Source of the DNA: Agmasoma carcini (nom. nud.) | Lineage: Eukaryota; Microsporidia; Thelohaniidae | DNA length: 30,381 nt | Direction: 5' to 3' | Assembly (NCBI GenBank): GCA_029232285.1 | Contig: JAOXFI010000039.1 | Location: 1-30,381, forward strand | Part shown: one piece after another, positions 2,172 through 30,381 of the stretch | How the letters are laid out: each line of letters begins with the position of its first letter | Numbering within the stretch: position 1 is the stretch's first letter | Program-made: the position numbers and the translations under genes | The notes under the pieces: generated by a model | Database searches by the model: none | Told to the model about the DNA's origin: nothing | What the model saw: only the letters and a program-made list of their open reading frames with translations

Positions 2172-2229
2172 TAAAATTTTTTTAAAAAAGATTTTGTTTG
2201 TTATTTAATCAAATTTCTAAATAAAAATT

Positions 2230-2905
2230 ATATAAATAGTCTAAAGTAGTATCAATAGAAATCTTTCCGTTTATTTTCATCTTCTATAAATAATATTAAA
2301 ATATAAAATACTTAGAAAAGTGAAACTTTAAAGTAAAAACACCAAAGATTAGACAACAAGAATCAAAATAGTTTGTAGGAGGGACATACAGGTTGAATAA
2401 TTAACATACTCTTATCGTATTTTGATAAAAAAATTGTAAAAGCTTGTTTGTTTAGTGAAAGTAAGAATTTAAAGACACCATACAATATTGTAGCTAAATT
2501 TAGTGCTATTACGTCATCAACCATATTATATCTTCAAAGGGAGGTGACTGCCTATTGACCGCAATTTAGTTACTCAGAGTGAACAGACCTATCTTATCTA
2601 ACCGGTCTTGATTTTCCTTACCAACAAAGAAGAACAGTCTGTATATCAACATATTGAACAAGTCTATCGTATCTAACCGGTCTTGATTTTCCTTACCAAC
2701 GAAGGAGAACATTCTGTATATCAACATTGTGAACAATCCTATCGTATCTAACCGGTCTTGACTTTCCTTACCAACAAAGAAGAACAGTCTGTATATCAAC
2801 ATTGTGAACAAGCTTATCGTATCTAACCGGTCATGGTTTAGACCCTAACGCATTATAGTTCAACTGGTTTTTCCACTCTGCATCACTTCAAGGTCTGGAT
2901 CTTTA
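2230..2905 (-). repeat. Dispersed structured repeat, copy A (reverse)
   Basis: This non-coding stretch aligns by eye along most of its length with copy F (27150-27670). Shared landmarks are AGTAAAAACA near 2330, ACTCTTATCGTRTTTTG near 2410, TTTAGTGCTATTAC near 2497, TATATCTTCAAA near 2526, CTGTATATC, GTGAACA, GACCCTAAC near 2840 and AAGGTCTG near 2890. It belongs to the six-copy family described under findings. It differs from the other copies in carrying an internal 75-bp tandem amplification. Boundaries are approximate. I see no convincing coding content. Confidence 0.7.
2581..2840. repeat. 75-bp tandem repeat inside copy A
   Basis: Unit starts are marked by GAACA at 2581, 2656, 2731 and 2806, an exact 75-bp period over about 3.4 units. 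Each unit carries ATCTAACCGGTCTTG and CTGTATATCAACAT. Because 75 is divisible by three, an open frame passes through the array on the minus strand; it is an artefact of the period. The unit corresponds to one conserved part of the dispersed repeat, so this is a local expansion of that element. Confidence 0.85.
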
Positions 2906-3112
2906 AAAAATTGTAAATAAATAGAATACAATTGTAAGCAGTTGAAGAGATCAAAAAATATAAATTCATATAAAATGCTTTGCAGCAAAGTAAATTTTTA
3001 AAAAAATAAAATTATTGAGTGGTAATAAAAACATAGATAATGATATACAATTTTTTAATATATGTATAGAAATTTAAAAAATATGTTTATCATGTCTTAA
3101 AATAATTTTATT

Positions 3113-6633: not shown

Positions 6634-6965
6634 CACCTTATCAAAGATTTACACACATGGTCACGGGTAACGACATGAAAAACGGTATAAAAATGTTTTT
6701 TTTCTTATATATTGTCACCTTATCAAATATTTACACACATGGTCACGGGTAACGACATGAAAAATGGTATAAAAATGTTTTTTTCTTATATATTATCACC
6801 TTATCAAAATTTACACACATGGTCACGGGTAACGACATGAAAAACGGTATAAAAATGTTTTTTTTCTTATATATTATCACCTTATCAAAATTTACAAACA
6901 TGGTCACAGGTAACACAGTCATAACAGAAATCAATATAAAATTATTATTGTTTTTCTTATATAAT
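6634..6965. repeat. 81-82 bp tandem repeat, four units
   Basis: Units start with CACCTTATCAAA at 6634, 6716, 6797 and 6878. Each contains ACACATGGTCACGGGTAACG and AACGGTATAAAAATG, then a T run. The first three are nearly identical and the fourth diverges after its first third. The array lies between a decayed transposon and the 3' end of the minus-strand gene at 7020-8435. GTCACGGGTAACGAC is the least AT-rich part and is conserved in every unit. Confidence 0.9.
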
Positions 6966-8699: not shown

Positions 8700-9240
8700 C
8701 AATCATACCAATAATAAAGCTCTGTGATGAGTCCAGACTTACATGTGGTAACGTTGGAAACTACGGCTAATTGGGCTTAAGCAGGTCGTGGGGATACGGA
8801 TAACCTTGTTCACTCTGGGAAACTAGTTTGTGGTCGATAGACAGACACCTCTTCTCCATTTACAGGGAAGTGCTACTTCTTAAAGATATAAGTTAGGACG
8901 TGCGTAATAGCACTAAGCCCAGCTTACAATATAAAATTGTCATCTTTAAAGTCTTTTTTGTCACCATCACAATCAAGTTTTTCTACTACCTTTTACCAAA
9001 GCACGAATAGTTTATGATATTTAATATATGATTTAGTCTCTTCTATATTTTATATTTTGTTTGATTTAGGTGTTTTTACTTGCTGGTTCGGCTTTTCTCC
9101 TATGGTAAATTTATTGATAATTAAGATTTTTTATAAAAAATGACCGGAGTGGTTTCCATTCGATACTACTTTGTGTCTTATTTCACACTTTTGCCTGAGC
9201 AAGCACATTGGACAACTAAACCTTTTATTATAAATTAAGA
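8700..9240 (+). repeat. Dispersed structured repeat, copy B (forward)
   Basis: This is the most GC-rich copy of the family. Landmarks in order are GCTCTGTGATGAGTCCAGAC, GGTAACGTTGGAAACTAC (8747-8764), TTGTTCACTCTGGGAAACTA (8808-8827), GGTCGATAGACAGACACC, AAAGATATAAGTTAGGA, CGTAATAGCACTAA, TACAATATA, AAGTTTTTCTACTACC, GTGTTTTTACTTG and GGAGTGGTTTCCATTCGATA. The reverse complement of copy F shows the same series. No open frame of note is present. It is convergent with copy C about 200 bp away. Confidence 0.75.
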
Positions 9241-9419
9241 ATGATAGTATTTTTTATGACATTGAGTTCAATTCCACGATTTGTCATTTTTTTAAATTTT
9301 AAGATTATAAGCTATAACAGAAATATAAATATTTTTAACTTAAATGTATAATTATTTAATATAACTAACTATGATGATTTAATATACAAATGTACAAAGT
9401 ATTACAATAATATCTTTGT

Positions 9420-9825
9420 TTTGAAATATTCTTGCACAAGCAAAAAGCATAAGTGATATCTATTGGAAGCATCTCCGTTCATATTCGCTTATTCTACAAG
9501 AATATTAAAGTATCAGTCAATCTAGAAAAACAAAAATATTCAAAATGGAATGTAAAAAGGATAATTAACAACCATACAATTAAGGTATTAGAAAAACTTG
9601 ATTGTCAAGCCTTTATAGATGCGACAGTAAGACTTTAAAGACTGCATAGTATATTGTAATGGGTTTAGTGCTATAACGCACATCTTAATTTATATCTTTA
9701 ATAAGAGGGGTGTCTGTCTATCAACCGAAAACCAATTTCCCAGAGTTAGCAAGGTTCACCTATCTTATCAGCCCTGTCATAACCCACATAGCTATCGTTA
9801 GCACGTGGAGGTCAAAACTCTTTAT
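9420..9825 (-). repeat. Dispersed structured repeat, copy C (reverse)
   Basis: The reverse complement carries CTAACTCTGGGAAATTGGTT, GATAGACAGACACCCCT, AAAGATATAAATTAAGATG, CGTTATAGCACTAAACCC, TACAATATA, AATCAAGTTTTTCTAATACC and GGAGATGCTTCCAATAGATA. These match the blocks and order of copy B. At the 5' end, GACCTCCACGTGCTAACG matches copy E (GACCTCCACGTGAAAACG). A 61-codon open frame at 9453-9638 is incidental. Confidence 0.75.
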
Positions 9826-10075
9826 AAAACTTTATAATTTAATGATACCTAATTTTATCTTTATGGGCTGTAAATTATTATAATTTTATCTATATATTGA
9901 CTTATATTCCATATCATCAATCTTTTAATTGTTAATATTGATCAGCCCCATAATATTTCATATCACCATCATGTACAATTCTAAACTAATAATCATAACA
10001 TGCCCCACTCATATCAAACTCAATAATAAACTAATTAATATTTAACATACCAAAAATAACATAAAATAAATTTAA
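9826..10075. other. AT-rich spacer 3' of MCM5
   Basis: No gene, tandem array or transposon relic is visible. The sequence is AT-rich with a few short C-containing words. Confidence 0.4.
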
Positions 10076-14151: not shown

Positions 14152-14204
14152 ATAAAATATTAAAGAAACATGAATTATAGAAATATGATATTAAAGAAAT
14201 ATGA

Positions 14205-14390
14205 TATTTATACTATTATACTATTATACTATTATACTATTATACTATTATACTATTATACTATCATACTATTATACTATCATACTATCATACTACCATA
14301 CTATCATACTATCATACTATCATACTACCATACTATCATACTACCATACTATCATACTATCATACTATCATAACTATTATAACTATTATA
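14205..14390. repeat. 8-bp microsatellite (TATTATAC / TATCATAC)
   Basis: About 22 units of TATTATAC grade into TATCATAC and TACCATAC, and the array ends 35 bp before NOP10. Open frames run through it in two phases because the unit has no stop codon; these are not genes. T-to-C variation between units increases toward the 3' side. Confidence 0.95.
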
Positions 14391-14424
14391 ATGTCCTTTT
14401 ATCCTTTTATTTAAAATTATCCCA

Positions 14425-15149: not shown

Positions 15150-15630
15150 ATTAGTAATTTTTGTAATTTGATATAAATATTTGTGACTTGATATAAATAT
15201 TTGTAATATGATAAGTATATTTTGTAATTTGATATAAATATTTGTAAGTTGATGTGCATATTTGTAATTTGATATAAATATTTGTAATTTGATATGCATA
15301 TTTTGTAAGTTGATATAAATATTTTATAGGTTGATATAAATATTTGTAAGTTGATATGCATATTTTGTAAATTGATATAAATATTTGTAATATGATAAGT
15401 ATATTTTGTAATTTGATATAAATATTTGTAAGTTTATATAAATATTTGTAAGTTTATATAAATATTTGTAATATGATATGCATATTTTGTAATTTGATAT
15501 GCATATTTTGTAAGTTGATATGTATATTTGTAATTTGATATAAATATTTTGCAATTTGATATGCATATTTTGCAATTTGATATAAATACTTGTAAATTGA
15601 TATAAATATTTGTAAGTTGATATATAAAAA
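15150..15630. repeat. 20-bp minisatellite, about 24 units
   Basis: The tandem units resemble TTTGTAATTTGATATAAATA with variants (AAGTTGATATGCATA, TATGATAAGTATA) and occasional one-base length changes. ATAAATA and ATGCATA unit types alternate in runs, suggesting higher-order duplication. The array fills almost all the space between the 171-aa gene and the next secreted-type gene. Minus-strand open frames through it are artefacts. Confidence 0.93.
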
Positions 15631-15705: not shown

Positions 15706-16251
15706 ATGAATTTTATTTTTTTAATTATTTTATGCATTAAAACTGAGTATGAAACAAATAAAAAATTAGAATTGTTGTTTTATGATTCAAAGGTAATAAA
15801 AATAAAGGAAAAGGCTATAAAATGTCAAGAAAGTATAAATGAAGTATTAGATGAATGTATAATAGTTGAATATATTAAGAATTTGATTGATAGAAGTTTT
15901 ATGCAATTTTATAAAGAAATTAATTCAAATTATGAAAATTTATTTAAAAATTTATTTAAAGAAAATTATAAAAATTTACATGAAATTGATTTAATAATTT
16001 TTGAACTTAAATTTTCAATTGAATTACAAATATTGAAAAAAAATATATTTATTGAAGTAAAATGTCTTTTGAATTATTATAGTAATAAAATAGTTAAAAT
16101 TTTGGATGAATTGATTGAATTTAATGCATGTTTTGTTGAAAAGAAGGATGATATATTGAAAAATATGGGAAATGTTTTATCAAAAGAAATGATTGATGAT
16201 GAAATTGAATCTATAAATAAAAAATATTTATTTTATATAAATTTTATATAA
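15706..16251 (+). CDS. Secreted-type hypothetical protein, tandem paralog 1 (181 aa)
   Basis: It has a short hydrophobic leader (MNFIFLIILCIKT) and a mature part rich in Lys, Ile, Asn and Glu that looks almost entirely helical. It is paralogous to the next gene at 16464, with the same length and collinear segments. Compare LELLFYDSKVIKIKEKA with VKLIFYSEQVIRITNKA, INEVLDE with INKVLDD, IELQILKKNI with LEIQILKKNI, and IVKILDELI with IIKIFDELI. The start has AAATTTTAACCT directly upstream. No known domain is recognised. Tandem duplication and divergence of secreted helical proteins is common in parasite lineages; a host-interaction role is only a guess. Confidence 0.78.
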   Translation: MNFIFLIILCIKTEYETNKKLELLFYDSKVIKIKEKAIKCQESINEVLDECIIVEYIKNLIDRSFMQFYKEINSNYENLFKNLFKENYKNLHEIDLIIFELKFSIELQILKKNIFIEVKCLLNYYSNKIVKILDELIEFNACFVEKKDDILKNMGNVLSKEMIDDEIESINKKYLFYINFI

Positions 16252-16463: not shown

Positions 16464-17009
16464 ATGTTTTATTTTCTATCCCTGGTTCTATTAATCAATA
16501 CAAATGAATATTATAAATATAGATCAGATCAAATAGTAAAGCTTATTTTTTATAGTGAACAAGTCATAAGAATTACAAATAAAGCAAAAGAAACTCAAAT
16601 CAATATAAATAAGGTTTTAGATGATGGTTTATTGTTTGAAAGTGTTAAAAAGGAAATTGAAGCTCATTTCAATAATTTTTATAATGTACTCAATTTTAAC
16701 TATAAAAATATTTTAAAAAAAAATGGTATTTTAAATTTAAATAATAAAATATTAAATAAAATTGATATTTCAATATTTGAACTTAATTTACTACTTGAAA
16801 TACAAATATTGAAGAAAAATATAATAAATGACACATCTTCATTACTAAATCAATATGTAGATAAAATAATAAAAATATTTGATGAATTAATTGGTCTAAA
16901 TATTATACTTGAATTCACTAAGAAAAAAATATTATCAGAATTTAAAGAAGTGGTAATGGAACAATTCCTTGAGATTTATTTAAGAAATTTAAATGAAAAT
17001 TTTAGTTAA
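16464..17009 (+). CDS. Secreted-type hypothetical protein, tandem paralog 2 (181 aa)
   Basis: It is also 181 aa and has a hydrophobic N-terminus (MFYFLSLVLLINT) and a helical Asn/Lys/Ile-rich mature part collinear with the gene at 15706 (shared QILKKNI and the KI-DELI motif). The regions around the leader and the C-terminal 40 residues have diverged most. The ATG is preceded by TAAAATTATC, a weaker form of the local start motif. It is convergent with eL33, with a repeat-rich spacer between them. I recognise no family. Confidence 0.78.
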   Translation: MFYFLSLVLLINTNEYYKYRSDQIVKLIFYSEQVIRITNKAKETQININKVLDDGLLFESVKKEIEAHFNNFYNVLNFNYKNILKKNGILNLNNKILNKIDISIFELNLLLEIQILKKNIINDTSSLLNQYVDKIIKIFDELIGLNIILEFTKKKILSEFKEVVMEQFLEIYLRNLNENFS

Positions 17010-18830: not shown

Positions 18831-19422
18831 CACTATGAGGTATTATCAGTTTATATAGAAAAAAATGATAATTTCTTCAACTATAAAGGATTTACGAAGA
18901 ATAAGTATAAACGTGATGGTAAACCTTCGGGTGGTTATGTGAATCACTATAATAACAATAAGATAAATAAAATATCCTTAATAAACTCTTACCTGCTTTA
19001 TAGGTGGGTTACCTCAATATTATAAAATGAATTCAATTTTAAAACAAATCATTGGTAGTCGCAATTTTATTGTTCACTTTGATATATTTTTTTGTGTTAT
19101 TTCTCTAGAGCAACAAATGTATTATAGGTCTGACTTCGTACCATTAGTATCGAATCACTAAAATACTATTTGGACAAGACTAGGATTAAGTCAATATGAT
19201 TATAAGAGAGAAATATATTTAAGAGTTGATATAAAAATTTGTATTTAAATATTAATATAAGTTATATACCTAGTTAGGATCAACAACTAATAATGAAAAA
19301 GAAATGATATACTATAACTAATCACAAGTCATATATTCATTGCACTTTGGTCAAAGAGAATTTTTTATATATTTTTTCAATCTAGCACTAATTCATGAAA
19401 TTTAAAAAAATTAACTTTGATG
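18831..19422. other. Non-coding or decayed stretch
   Basis: A plus-strand frame near 18870-18990 reads FNYKGFTKNKYKRDGKPS and then YVNHYNNNKINKI before stops. It may be a transposase scrap but is too short to assign. The remainder shows no gene, tandem array or inverted repeat that I can support. Confidence 0.3.
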
Positions 19423-19870
19423 ATTCCAGACCCCCCTTGTCAGAGTAGTAACATAAAAACAAATGGGCTAAAGCATGCCATTTGAGAAACGTAAAACTTT
19501 TTTTATTTTTTTAATTGTTTTCAGGTCGATAGGTAGACACCCCTACTTAATTGGCAAGAAAATAAAGATATAAGTTAGGATGTACGTAATAGCACTAAGC
19601 CAGCACAACCGTATACTATTTAAGTCTTATTATCACAATCTATGATGGCATGATAGTCAAGTTTTTATTTTATTTTTTATAAAACAACGATGATTGTATA
19701 ATTTTTTATCATTTTTATAATTATTCAGCTTTTCTCATTTGTAGAAAATGTTAAAATAGATGGAAAAGTTTTAAATCACTAACACTTTATGTGTGTTTTC
19801 ATGCTTTTGTCTAAACGATCATACTAGATGATTAAAAGGTTTAATTATCTAAGGTTTAACCATTTAATTG
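19423..19870 (+). repeat. Dispersed structured repeat, copy D (forward, decayed)
   Basis: Family blocks in order are TTCCAGACC (19423), CAGAGTAGTAAC, GGTCGATAGGTAGACACCCC (19525), AAAGATATAAGTTAGGATG, CGTAATAGCACTAAGCC (19584), TCAAGTTTTT, CAGCTTTTCTC and an ATGTGTGTTTTCATGCTTTTG segment matching the 3' part of copy B. The GTTGGAAAC hairpin block is not preserved. Confidence 0.7.
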
Positions 19871-24929: not shown

Positions 24930-25430
24930 GCCTTTCAATTCCCTTTAAGAAGATCATAACGAAATTGTACTTAACCGTAAAAAGGATAAAAGTATTTATT
25001 GCATGCAAAATCAAAAATATAATTCAAAGAGAAATAACAAACATATACCTAAGGGATAGCAATCATATATTTATCGTGCTTTGAATTAAAACAGCGTCAA
25101 AAACAAAATGCCATGCCCTCTTGAAAAATTTTATATGATGAAGCAAAACTTTCAAGACATACAATATGACGTGATTGTAGCTGAATTTCTCACATGGTTC
25201 AATTTTTTTGTGCTCTACTCCCACTGACCAGCTTGCATCTTCGAGCTACCAAGGTGGCTTTCTTTTTCCGTAAAAAAGTGTCTATTATCTACTACAGACA
25301 AGTTTCTCAGTCTTTAAGGTTATTCATAATCTTTTGATCTTATTATAAACCAATTAACTGTTGTTTACAACGTTTTCACGTGGAGGTCAAGACCCATCAC
25401 TGATCCCTCGTCTATAACCTGTCCAATTAA
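24930..25430 (-). repeat. Dispersed structured repeat, copy E (reverse, decayed)
   Basis: The reverse complement starts near GTCTTGACCTCCACGTG and continues AACGTTGTAAACAAC (GTTG, TAAA loop, CAAC), AATAACCTT, AAACTTGTCT and GTAGATAATAGACAC. The more distal part has CAGCTACAAT and AAAGCACGATAAATAT, matching the AAACACGATAAGAGTA block of copy F. The middle is highly diverged. It lies exactly between the two small genes with the shared C-terminal signature. Confidence 0.55.
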
Positions 25431-26968: not shown

Positions 26969-27149
26969 TGTCGGTGAGTAACACTTTAAATGTGATTGAA
27001 ATAAATAGATTTAATACAGTGTGGTGAGTATAAAAATTCTTAAATAATTGGAGGATAAGGTTAAGGCATATGAAAGTATTGTTATATTAAAAAATCGGAT
27101 TTTAAAAGATAAATATTAAGTACAATCATTTAACAACATCATAATAAAT

Positions 27150-27670
27150 AATAACAAGTTTAGTTATTAAATATGAATAAACACAAGCCAGTATAGATTG
27201 GAAACCTCTCCAATCATTTTCTACAATTAATTTTAAAGTTTCAGCAAACCTAGAAAAGTCAAACCCTTAAGTAAAAACATCTAAAACCAAACAACAGTAA
27301 ATAAAATGTAGAAGGGAAACAGCTGGAGATAACGACCATACTCTTATCGTGTTTTGTAAAAGAGAGTAGAAAAACTAGAGTGTAATGCCTTCATAGATGG
27401 TGAAAATAAGGTTTTAATGATATCTTACTATATTGTAGCTGTATTTAGTGCTATTACACAAACTGTGTAGCTTATATCTTCAAAAAGTGATCCTTCCTTG
27501 TCAATGAAGAAGAGCTGTCTGTATATCGATCGCAACTAGTTTCACAGAGTGAACAAAAATATCTGTATTCCCTTGGCAGACCCTAACCTGTTATAGTTGA
27601 ATTTATGTTGTTTCCAACGTTATCACTCTGCAGCGAGTGAAGGTCTGAACTATTACAGAGCCAATATCAC
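27150..27670 (-). repeat. Dispersed structured repeat, copy F (reverse)
   Basis: Read on the minus strand: GGCTCTGTAATAGTTCAGACC, CACTCGCTGCAGAGTG (hairpin), ATAACGTTGGAAACAAC (GTTG-GAAA-CAAC hairpin), TTAGGGTCTGCC, TTGTTCACTCTGTGAAACTA, GATCGATATACAGACAGC, GAAGATATAAGCTACAC, GTGTAATAGCACTAAA, TACAATATAG, AGTTTTTCTACTC, AAAACACGATAAGAGTATGG, TGTTTTTACTTAAGGG and GGAGAGGTTTCCAATCTATA. It is the best-preserved full-length copy and has no tandem expansion. CAGACC and GGTCTG in the 5' part can pair and enclose the two hairpins. Confidence 0.75.
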
Positions 27671-28149: not shown

Positions 28150-28740
28150 CATGTTCCTCTATGTCAATCATACATATCATTATCTTATCATCAGCATGAT
28201 AAGAAACATCAGAGAAGTTCCTATATGTCAGTTACACACGTCTTCTCGCTATAATCAACATCACATATGTTCTTCTATAATAGTTATACACACCCTCCTA
28301 TTATCATCAATACGATAAGAAACATCATATATGTTTTTCTATGTTGGTATCCACCACCTCTTAATCTTATCATCAACATGATAAGAAACATCAGAATATT
28401 CGTCCCTTAATCGTATCTTTTACACACCTCTTAATCTTATAATCAACATGATAAGAAACATCAGAATGTTCGTCCCTTAATCGTATCTTTTACACACCTC
28501 TTAATCTTATCATCAACATGATAAGAAACATCAGAATGTTCCTTTATCATAACTACACACATCTCCCCATCATCATTAAGCATAAACATTTATCATAACT
28601 ACACACATCTTCCCATCATCATCAAATATATTCCTTTATCATAACTACACACATCTTCCCATCATTATCACCATATTATGCTTCCCTATGTATCTTATAC
28701 ACACATCATCCTCTTATCATCAATTTGATATGAAACATCA
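28150..28740. repeat. Composite tandem repeats with hairpin units, 3' of the homeodomain gene
   Basis: There are several related units. Three units of about 67 bp at 28365-28545 carry CTTATCATCAACATGATAAG (an 8-bp inverted repeat with a 4-base loop), AAACATCAGAATGTTCGTCC and TTAATCGTATCTTTTACACA. Older diverged units lie at 28180-28365. A shorter unit (TTTATCATAACTACACACAT, then CTTCCCATCATCATC) repeats three to four times at 28545-28670. ACACAC is common to all. Confidence 0.85.
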
Positions 28741-28849
28741 TTTATGCTTATTTTTGATTGATCAAATGGAAATTTTTTTAAAAATTTTAAATTTATCACA
28801 TTTTTCTTCATTAAATTGATTTTCACAAAAAAAAATAATTTGCAAAATT

Positions 28850-30274: not shown

Positions 30275-30381
30275 AATTAGTTAGTCAAATATTTGGTTAG
30301 TTAGTTAGTTAGTCAAATATTTGGTTAGTTAGTTAGTTAGTCAAATATTTGGTTAGTTAGTTAGTTAGTCAAATATTTGGT
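30275..30381. repeat. 28-bp tandem repeat running off the window end
   Basis: The word TCAAATATTTGG occurs every 28 bp (30285, 30313, 30341, 30369), separated by four TTAG tetramers. CAAATATTTG is itself a palindrome. The array reaches the last base, so its full length is unknown. Confidence 0.93.

Follow-up and report, generated by a model that had tools for sequence, protein, structure and literature searches.

What are the six regions of this locus that share short blocks in the same order and encode no evident protein? The window, by which we mean the whole 30,381-nt stretch analyzed, is an entire contig (C63), one of 69 in a 4.26-Mb assembly whose MCM5 has Vittaforma corneae as its top-scoring named protein (57% identity). 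Most of the next-best proteins are also microsporidian, which makes the host a microsporidium. A sequence-only reading of the window had proposed either a non-autonomous mobile element with a structured RNA or a multicopy non-coding RNA gene. We conclude that the family is very probably a non-autonomous, promoterless non-LTR retroposon of the SIDE/NARTc-like kind, carrying a 5′ HDV-like ribozyme and presumably mobilized by a LINE.

A profile HMM of 30 genome copies, with copy A itself as 1 of the 30 training rows, recovered all six regions and found none in the reversed window, confirming the six copies. The E-values of the best piece per copy ranged from 1.3e-155 to 1.2e-23. The start of copy A, previously placed at 8700, was about 20 nt too early, and the envelope starts at 8719. 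The six copies are as follows:

8719..9235, plus strand: copy A, whole element from the 5′ G1 to the 3′ ATT-type tail (nhmmer 512 bits, model positions 1-551 of 553)
9398..9830, minus strand: copy B (nhmmer 180 bits)
2194..2911, minus strand: copy C (nhmmer envelope 2904-2194, in four pieces)
19412..19852, plus strand: copy D (nhmmer 146 bits)
25031..25405, minus strand: copy E, with its 3′ part unmatched (nhmmer 76 bits)
27144..27661, minus strand: copy F, whole element (nhmmer 300 bits)

A 75-nt unit that occurs three times within copy C (2579-2839) accounts for its four-piece match; this is a part of the element grown to three tandem units, a minisatellite born within the element. All six window copies are decaying. 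Copy F looks like an old copy; its standing as a subfamily of its own was considered and rejected, its top-scoring relative, among the 40 of 107 candidates that were scored, being 72% identical over about 416 nt, with up to 78% over shorter stretches of about 158 nt.

Further copies were sought across the genome, and merged searches identified a dispersed non-coding family of about 510-550 nt at approximately 118 loci on 51 contigs. The merge joined BLAST places, 3′-end words, ribozyme-end words, and exact core words lying no more than 450 nt apart, with a BLAST place present in 73 of the 118 loci; the total is approximate, as copies D and E of the window were added manually, tandem copies were joined as one, and each list of candidates had an upper limit. 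One such pair, at C21:10831-11966, consists of two head-to-tail copies about 70 bp apart. BLAST with copy A gave at least 47 genome-wide matches (40 of 160 candidates scored) and with L017, a fuller copy, at least 53 (40 of 165 candidates scored). The word GTAATAGCACTAAG, allowing up to 2 mismatches, occurred 167 times in the genome versus 36 for its reversed control, and a 26-base word from the 3′ end of the element occurred 40 times versus 0 for the control. The exact ribozyme core had no occurrence in viral contigs.

The ends and insertion marks were determined from the flanks of the best 30 copies, a set that, being made of the best matches, is biased to well-kept copies. At the sharp 5′ end, mean majority identity rose from 0.48 in the upstream 20 nt to 0.80 in the first 20 nt of the element, whereas the 3′ end reads ...GGACAAATAAACCTTTTATTATT, with extra ATT-type repeats in some copies. 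Median length was 513.5 nt among aligned genome copies, and GC content was 0.35 inside the element versus 0.24 in the flanks. The absence of a coding frame noted earlier was upheld, with the longest ATG open reading frame averaging 47 amino acids (maximum 85) versus 46 (maximum 88) in one letter shuffle per copy. The end of the 5′ flank often recurs after the 3′ tail as a target-site duplication of about 9-20 bp. A duplication score of at least 12 was reached by 9 of 30 copies versus 6 of 870 mispaired flanks, and a score of at least 8 by 21 of 30 versus 142 of 870; none of 10,000 permutations reached the observed sum of scores. Duplications were clear in L002 (14/14), L006 (21/22), L017, and L025, with no clear duplication in the remaining copies among the 30. 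These flanking duplications look like the products of target-primed insertion.

The sharp 5′ end, the ATT-type 3′ tail, and the target-site duplications, together with a lack of terminal inverted repeats and of open reading frames beyond chance, identify the element as a retroposon. A MITE or solo LTR would also be short and non-coding, but no terminal inverted repeat was found (best ungapped match 11/25) and the duplications vary over about 9-20 bp rather than keeping one fixed short size, so that we regard this explanation as extremely unlikely.

The first approximately 70 nt of the element appear to fold as an HDV-like self-cleaving ribozyme, with cleavage predicted from the modeled structure. 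In the consensus of the first approximately 75 nt, the two longest possible helices are P1 (8 bp) and P2 (7 bp), and P4 (5 bp, 3 of them G-C) is third in length, tied with seven other helices but having the most G-C pairs. With P3, P1.1 (the CC of L3 paired with the GG following P1), and a J4/2 reading GCUAA, these form a double pseudoknot of the HDV-like type, of which the extant copy L017 satisfies 24 of 24 pairs. Our alignment of 28 rows took in 23 of the 30 loci, to which four others and window copy F were added; L004, L006, L007, L012, L022, L028, and L030, which were truncated or hard to align, were left out, as was window copy D. The J4/2 C was kept in 25 of these rows, and 87.5% of cells were paired, falling to 31-46% when the pairing was slid by 1-3 columns. 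The predicted cut lies just 5′ of G1, at the 5′ junction of the element, and would coincide with the insertion junction, as it does in R2 SIDEs. A strict descriptor, drawn up after the motif was seen and passed by 1 of the 30 loci, had its sole match at L017:1501, the first base of the element, in 209 kb covering the 30 loci on both strands, with no match in the window and one in 2.0 Mb of random (Markov) sequence. Pseudoknot-free folding was uninformative: 5 of 6 sequences showed no gain over their shuffles.

A model (R1), trained on 14 sequences with copy F among them, detected the 5′ end of each window copy, scoring 71 bits for F, 53 for A, 29 each for D and E, 22 for C, and 20 for B. The ribozyme features of the window are as follows:

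8719..8783, plus strand: copy A ribozyme region, 10-nt deletion form (R1 52.9 bits, with A outside R1 training; alignment A4)
8719..8725, plus strand: copy A P1 5′ strand, with predicted cleavage immediately 5′ of 8719 (alignment A4 and structure)
8730..8736, plus strand: copy A P2 5′ strand (partner 8771-8777, 7/7 pairs)
8752..8765, plus strand: copy A P4 hairpin with GAAA loop (4/5 pairs)
8766..8770, plus strand: copy A J4/2 GCTAA, with putative catalytic C at 8767
8771..8777, plus strand: copy A P2 3′ strand (partner of 8730-8736)
9775-9830, minus strand: copy B ribozyme region, decayed deletion form (R1 19.9 bits, E 0.037)
2851-2911, minus strand: copy C ribozyme region (R1 22.1 bits, E 0.012)
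19414-19475, plus strand: copy D ribozyme region (R1 29.4 bits)
25341-25398, minus strand: copy E ribozyme region, deletion form (R1 29.3 bits)
27589..27661, minus strand: copy F ribozyme (R1 71.2 bits, with F in the R1 training set)

The copy A region has lost the 3′ strand of P3 together with 5 of the 7 nt that make up the 3′ strand of P1. Copy F forms 7/7 pairs of P1, 6/7 of P2, 2/3 of P3, 2/2 of P1.1, and 4/5 of P4, with its J4/2 mutated to ATAAA.

The Rfam model RF02682 (HDV-F-prausnitzii) matched 9 of 18 loci keeping the P1 3′ strand, namely 6 of 14, a subset of the 18 of 30 loci so labeled, and then 3 of 4 further loci. The other 9 of the 18 gave no match, nor did any of 4 deletion-form loci. 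All 9 matches cover model positions 1-74 and begin at the first base of the element; outside that place, the 22 loci gave no hit to the model at thresholds of E 10 and E 5. The best scores were 35.3 and 34.3 bits (E of about 0.006), the others having E-values of 0.2-1.3, and none of the 9 reached the gathering score of 44 bits. The window alone had no Rfam ribozyme match. Matches to drz-agam (E 2.6 and 3.3) were given no weight.

Other RNA identities were considered and rejected. The element contains TGATGAGTCC...GGAAAC, which recalls a hammerhead core, but on inspection the closure of stem II misfits a hammerhead ribozyme. The word GCGTAATAGC resembles LSU rRNA, but an rRNA-derived repeat was rejected, no Rfam rRNA match being found in the window or the loci searched. 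No box C/D snoRNA was identified within the element; a SNORD31 match in L010 (1246-1309, plus strand, near 82.5 kb of contig C20; 33.7 bits with E 7.8e-4, for a gathering score of 40) falls outside it, at a place also matched by GlsR4 and U31b, and is likely a host C/D snoRNA gene.

The size, dispersion, and target-site duplications of the family would also agree with an ordinary SINE derived from a tRNA, 5S, or 7SL RNA and driven by an internal pol III promoter, the likeness to HDV then being due to chance. The 3′-half word GGTTCGGCTTT resembles a B box by eye, but it breaks the B-box consensus, and the majority sequence holds no match to the B-box pattern and just two isolated A-box-like words. 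No tRNA was found in the window, and Rfam tRNA, 5S, and SRP RNA models had no match in the window or the 22 loci. Further, of the 18 loci retaining the P1 3′ strand, 9 match the HDV model in full length starting at base 1, and we consider an ordinary SINE improbable.

Eight of the 30 copies, including window copy A, lack the 10-nt word GTGGTGCAGA. Flanked by a GTGG repeat on either side, this word contains the 3′ strand of P3 and 5 of the 7 nucleotides on the 3′ side of P1. An automatic label had counted 10 deletion copies by adding L012 and L022, whose losses are different. Genome-wide, patterns of unlike length for the two forms, each allowing up to 3 mismatches, identified 37 full and 19 deletion ribozyme ends (19/56, about a third), with 0 in controls. 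On a tree of the copies, the deletion copies were no more clustered than shuffled labels, and 8 changes were needed for 8 copies; well-supported branches alone required at least 3 changes for the group of 10. The sisters L002 and L008 (support 100/99) differ in deletion state. Given the lack of clustering and these differing sisters, the deletion seems recurrent rather than spread from one master, and it probably recurs via slippage, reverse-transcriptase jumping, or selection.

These results bear on whether the element needs its ribozyme at all, or moves without it, the fold being a relic of a LINE ancestor. The 19 deletion-form ends among 56, and the extension to the 3′ end of all 8 such copies examined, would suit a relic. 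The scattered placement of the deletion copies and the discordant sisters speak against it, on a tree that is mostly weak (3 of 27 inner branches well supported), and we consider a relic unlikely. We would tentatively entertain, as a possibility with the odds against it, that the deletion breaking P1 and P3 is a favored disarming event, since a working ribozyme in a compact, read-through-rich genome would cut host mRNAs; alternatively, the LINE reverse transcriptase may slip on the P1/P3 hairpin between the direct GTGG repeats, so that many newborn copies would be inactive. If disarming were true, the family would amount to a natural experiment on hosts that put up with a ribozyme-bearing parasite only after its ribozyme has been disabled.

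We also analyzed whether the copies are kept by selection or simply decay. Majority identity differed little over the length of the element (0.83-0.95 in bins of 25 columns), and median copy divergence was 12%. G>A and C>T were the most frequent substitutions (together 778 of 1862), moving the copies closer to their AT-rich surroundings. The well-kept islands described by the sequence-only reading were not confirmed in wider sampling: across 29 genome copies, excluding A, the seven blocks were 0.894 identical to the majority versus 0.873 elsewhere, a value equaled or beaten by 60 of 553 circular shifts. Within the window, identity of blocks versus the rest was 0.94 versus 0.74 in F, 0.90 versus 0.70 in B, 0.86 versus 0.67 in C, 0.78 versus 0.67 in D, and 0.67 versus 0.58 in E, although the blocks had been chosen from those very copies. 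No covariation beyond shuffles was found on 16 rows. On 28 rows, the covariation score was 0.147 versus 0.135 in shuffles (26 of 500 as high), and 11 cells were changed on both sides versus 6.7 (30 of 500 shuffles as high), with P2 pairs so changed twice in L056 and once in copy F; neutral decay of copies from a few masters would give little more. The suggestion that the pattern reflects selection acting on RNA or DNA structure, and not mere decay, is not supported in view of the even identity, the AT-ward substitutions, the absent or weak covariation, and the P1/P3-breaking deletion.

Of the two possibilities first offered, a host non-coding RNA gene present in many copies and retained because it serves the host would fit the structured 5′ domain and the wide dispersal of copies. 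It is disfavored by the target-site duplications, by even decay with substitutions towards AT, and by the deletion that breaks the ribozyme, present at 19 of the 56 pattern-scored ends, and we give it hardly any credence. The mobile element with a structured RNA is the possibility that stands, on the duplications, the sharp 5′ end, and the modeled 5′ HDV-like fold.

As a retroposon of this kind, the element would be transcribed by read-through from host genes, and the ribozyme at its extreme 5′ end would cut just before G1 to yield an RNA with an exact 5′ end. A LINE reverse transcriptase and endonuclease would then copy this RNA into a new site by target-primed reverse transcription, with target-site duplications and an ATT-type tail as its traces. 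LINEs are known from some microsporidia (PMC4202319). Several broken copies of a LINE-type reverse transcriptase (PF00078) were identified in this genome, the best at C48:33687-34685, and such decayed LINEs may have mobilized the family. Several of them lie at 25.3-41.7 kb of C48 (L040, L041), in one orientation and near the contig end, with further copies on C6, C64, C15, C49, C27, C59, and C66; these are possibly a subtelomeric LINE cluster. No LINE with the ends of the element was found in the stretches examined (L036, L040, L041, L045): end scores in L036, L040, and L041 lay within those of 20 shuffles, except for a marginal L041 3′-end score of 17 versus a maximum of 15, and the strong scores in L045 come from the element itself. 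We infer the LINE partner from the type of insertion. The element would likewise work as a SIDE does, with the class in its strict sense calling for ends shared with a LINE.

The window holds other repeats. At 28169-28756, a 60-70-bp repeat containing a TTATCATCAAcATGATAAGAAACATCA dyad occurs six times near a gene that by eye looks like a homeodomain gene, and a 28-bp tandem array of TTAGTTAGTTAGTTAGTCAAATATTTGG at 30277-30381 reaches the contig end and is possibly subtelomeric. Tandem arrays with units of 8, about 20, and about 81 bp lie at 14170-14401, 15153-15630, and 6644-6889, respectively. Two adjacent 181-amino-acid frames (15706-16251 and 16464-17009) share a 93-nt stretch, 78% identical, and look like a tandem duplicate.

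Microsporidia are a textbook case of genome reduction. With about 118 dispersed loci bearing intact and recurrently broken ribozymes, the family offers a test of how promoterless retroposons exploit read-through, and lets one ask whether self-cleaving insertions are selected against. A literature search, made partly by title and covering little of the subscription literature, showed, among the papers listed, no report of a self-cleaving ribozyme in microsporidian mobile elements, and we make no claim of priority.

Known systems offer close parallels. In PMC3774820, R2 elements are described as bearing 5′ HDV-like ribozymes that cut at the 5′ junction in Drosophila and upstream of it in many other animals. 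Non-autonomous R2 SIDEs consist of a ribozyme and a 3′ end, depend on co-transcription, and belong to a class, non-LTR SIDEs, described as rare in PMC3414825. The same paper presents the Drosophila R2 and R2/R1 SIDEs as short non-coding retroposons with a 5′ HDV-like ribozyme that gives an exact 5′ end, using LINE machinery in trans, co-transcribed, and without a promoter of their own, all of which recalls our element; in contrast, they reside in rDNA and share ends with known R1/R2, whereas the microsporidian element is dispersed and no LINE was matched to it. The small non-autonomous retrozymes also carry a self-cleaving ribozyme, of the hammerhead type (PMC4918200), whereas our element has an HDV-type fold and duplications of varying length. 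RF02682 shares with the element its P1/P3/P4 geometry, a similar L3, and the J4/2 GCUAA, and its model was matched end to end; it bears the name of a bacterium, whereas here the ribozyme heads a eukaryotic retroposon, and its top score of 35.3 bits falls short of the gathering score of 44. In trypanosomatids, a lineage unrelated to the microsporidian host, the non-autonomous NARTc, RIME, and SIDER likewise begin with an HDV-like ribozyme of about 77 nt and include many degenerate, inactive copies, with Pr77 ribozymes carried by NARTc and SIDER and common to the autonomous L1Tc/ingi (PMC4035085). Pr77 also drives transcription (PMC8190864, PMC4748587), whereas our element is taken to be promoterless and no autonomous partner was matched to it. 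The element joins a known kind, the non-autonomous retroposon with a 5′ HDV-like ribozyme, in an unexpected host.
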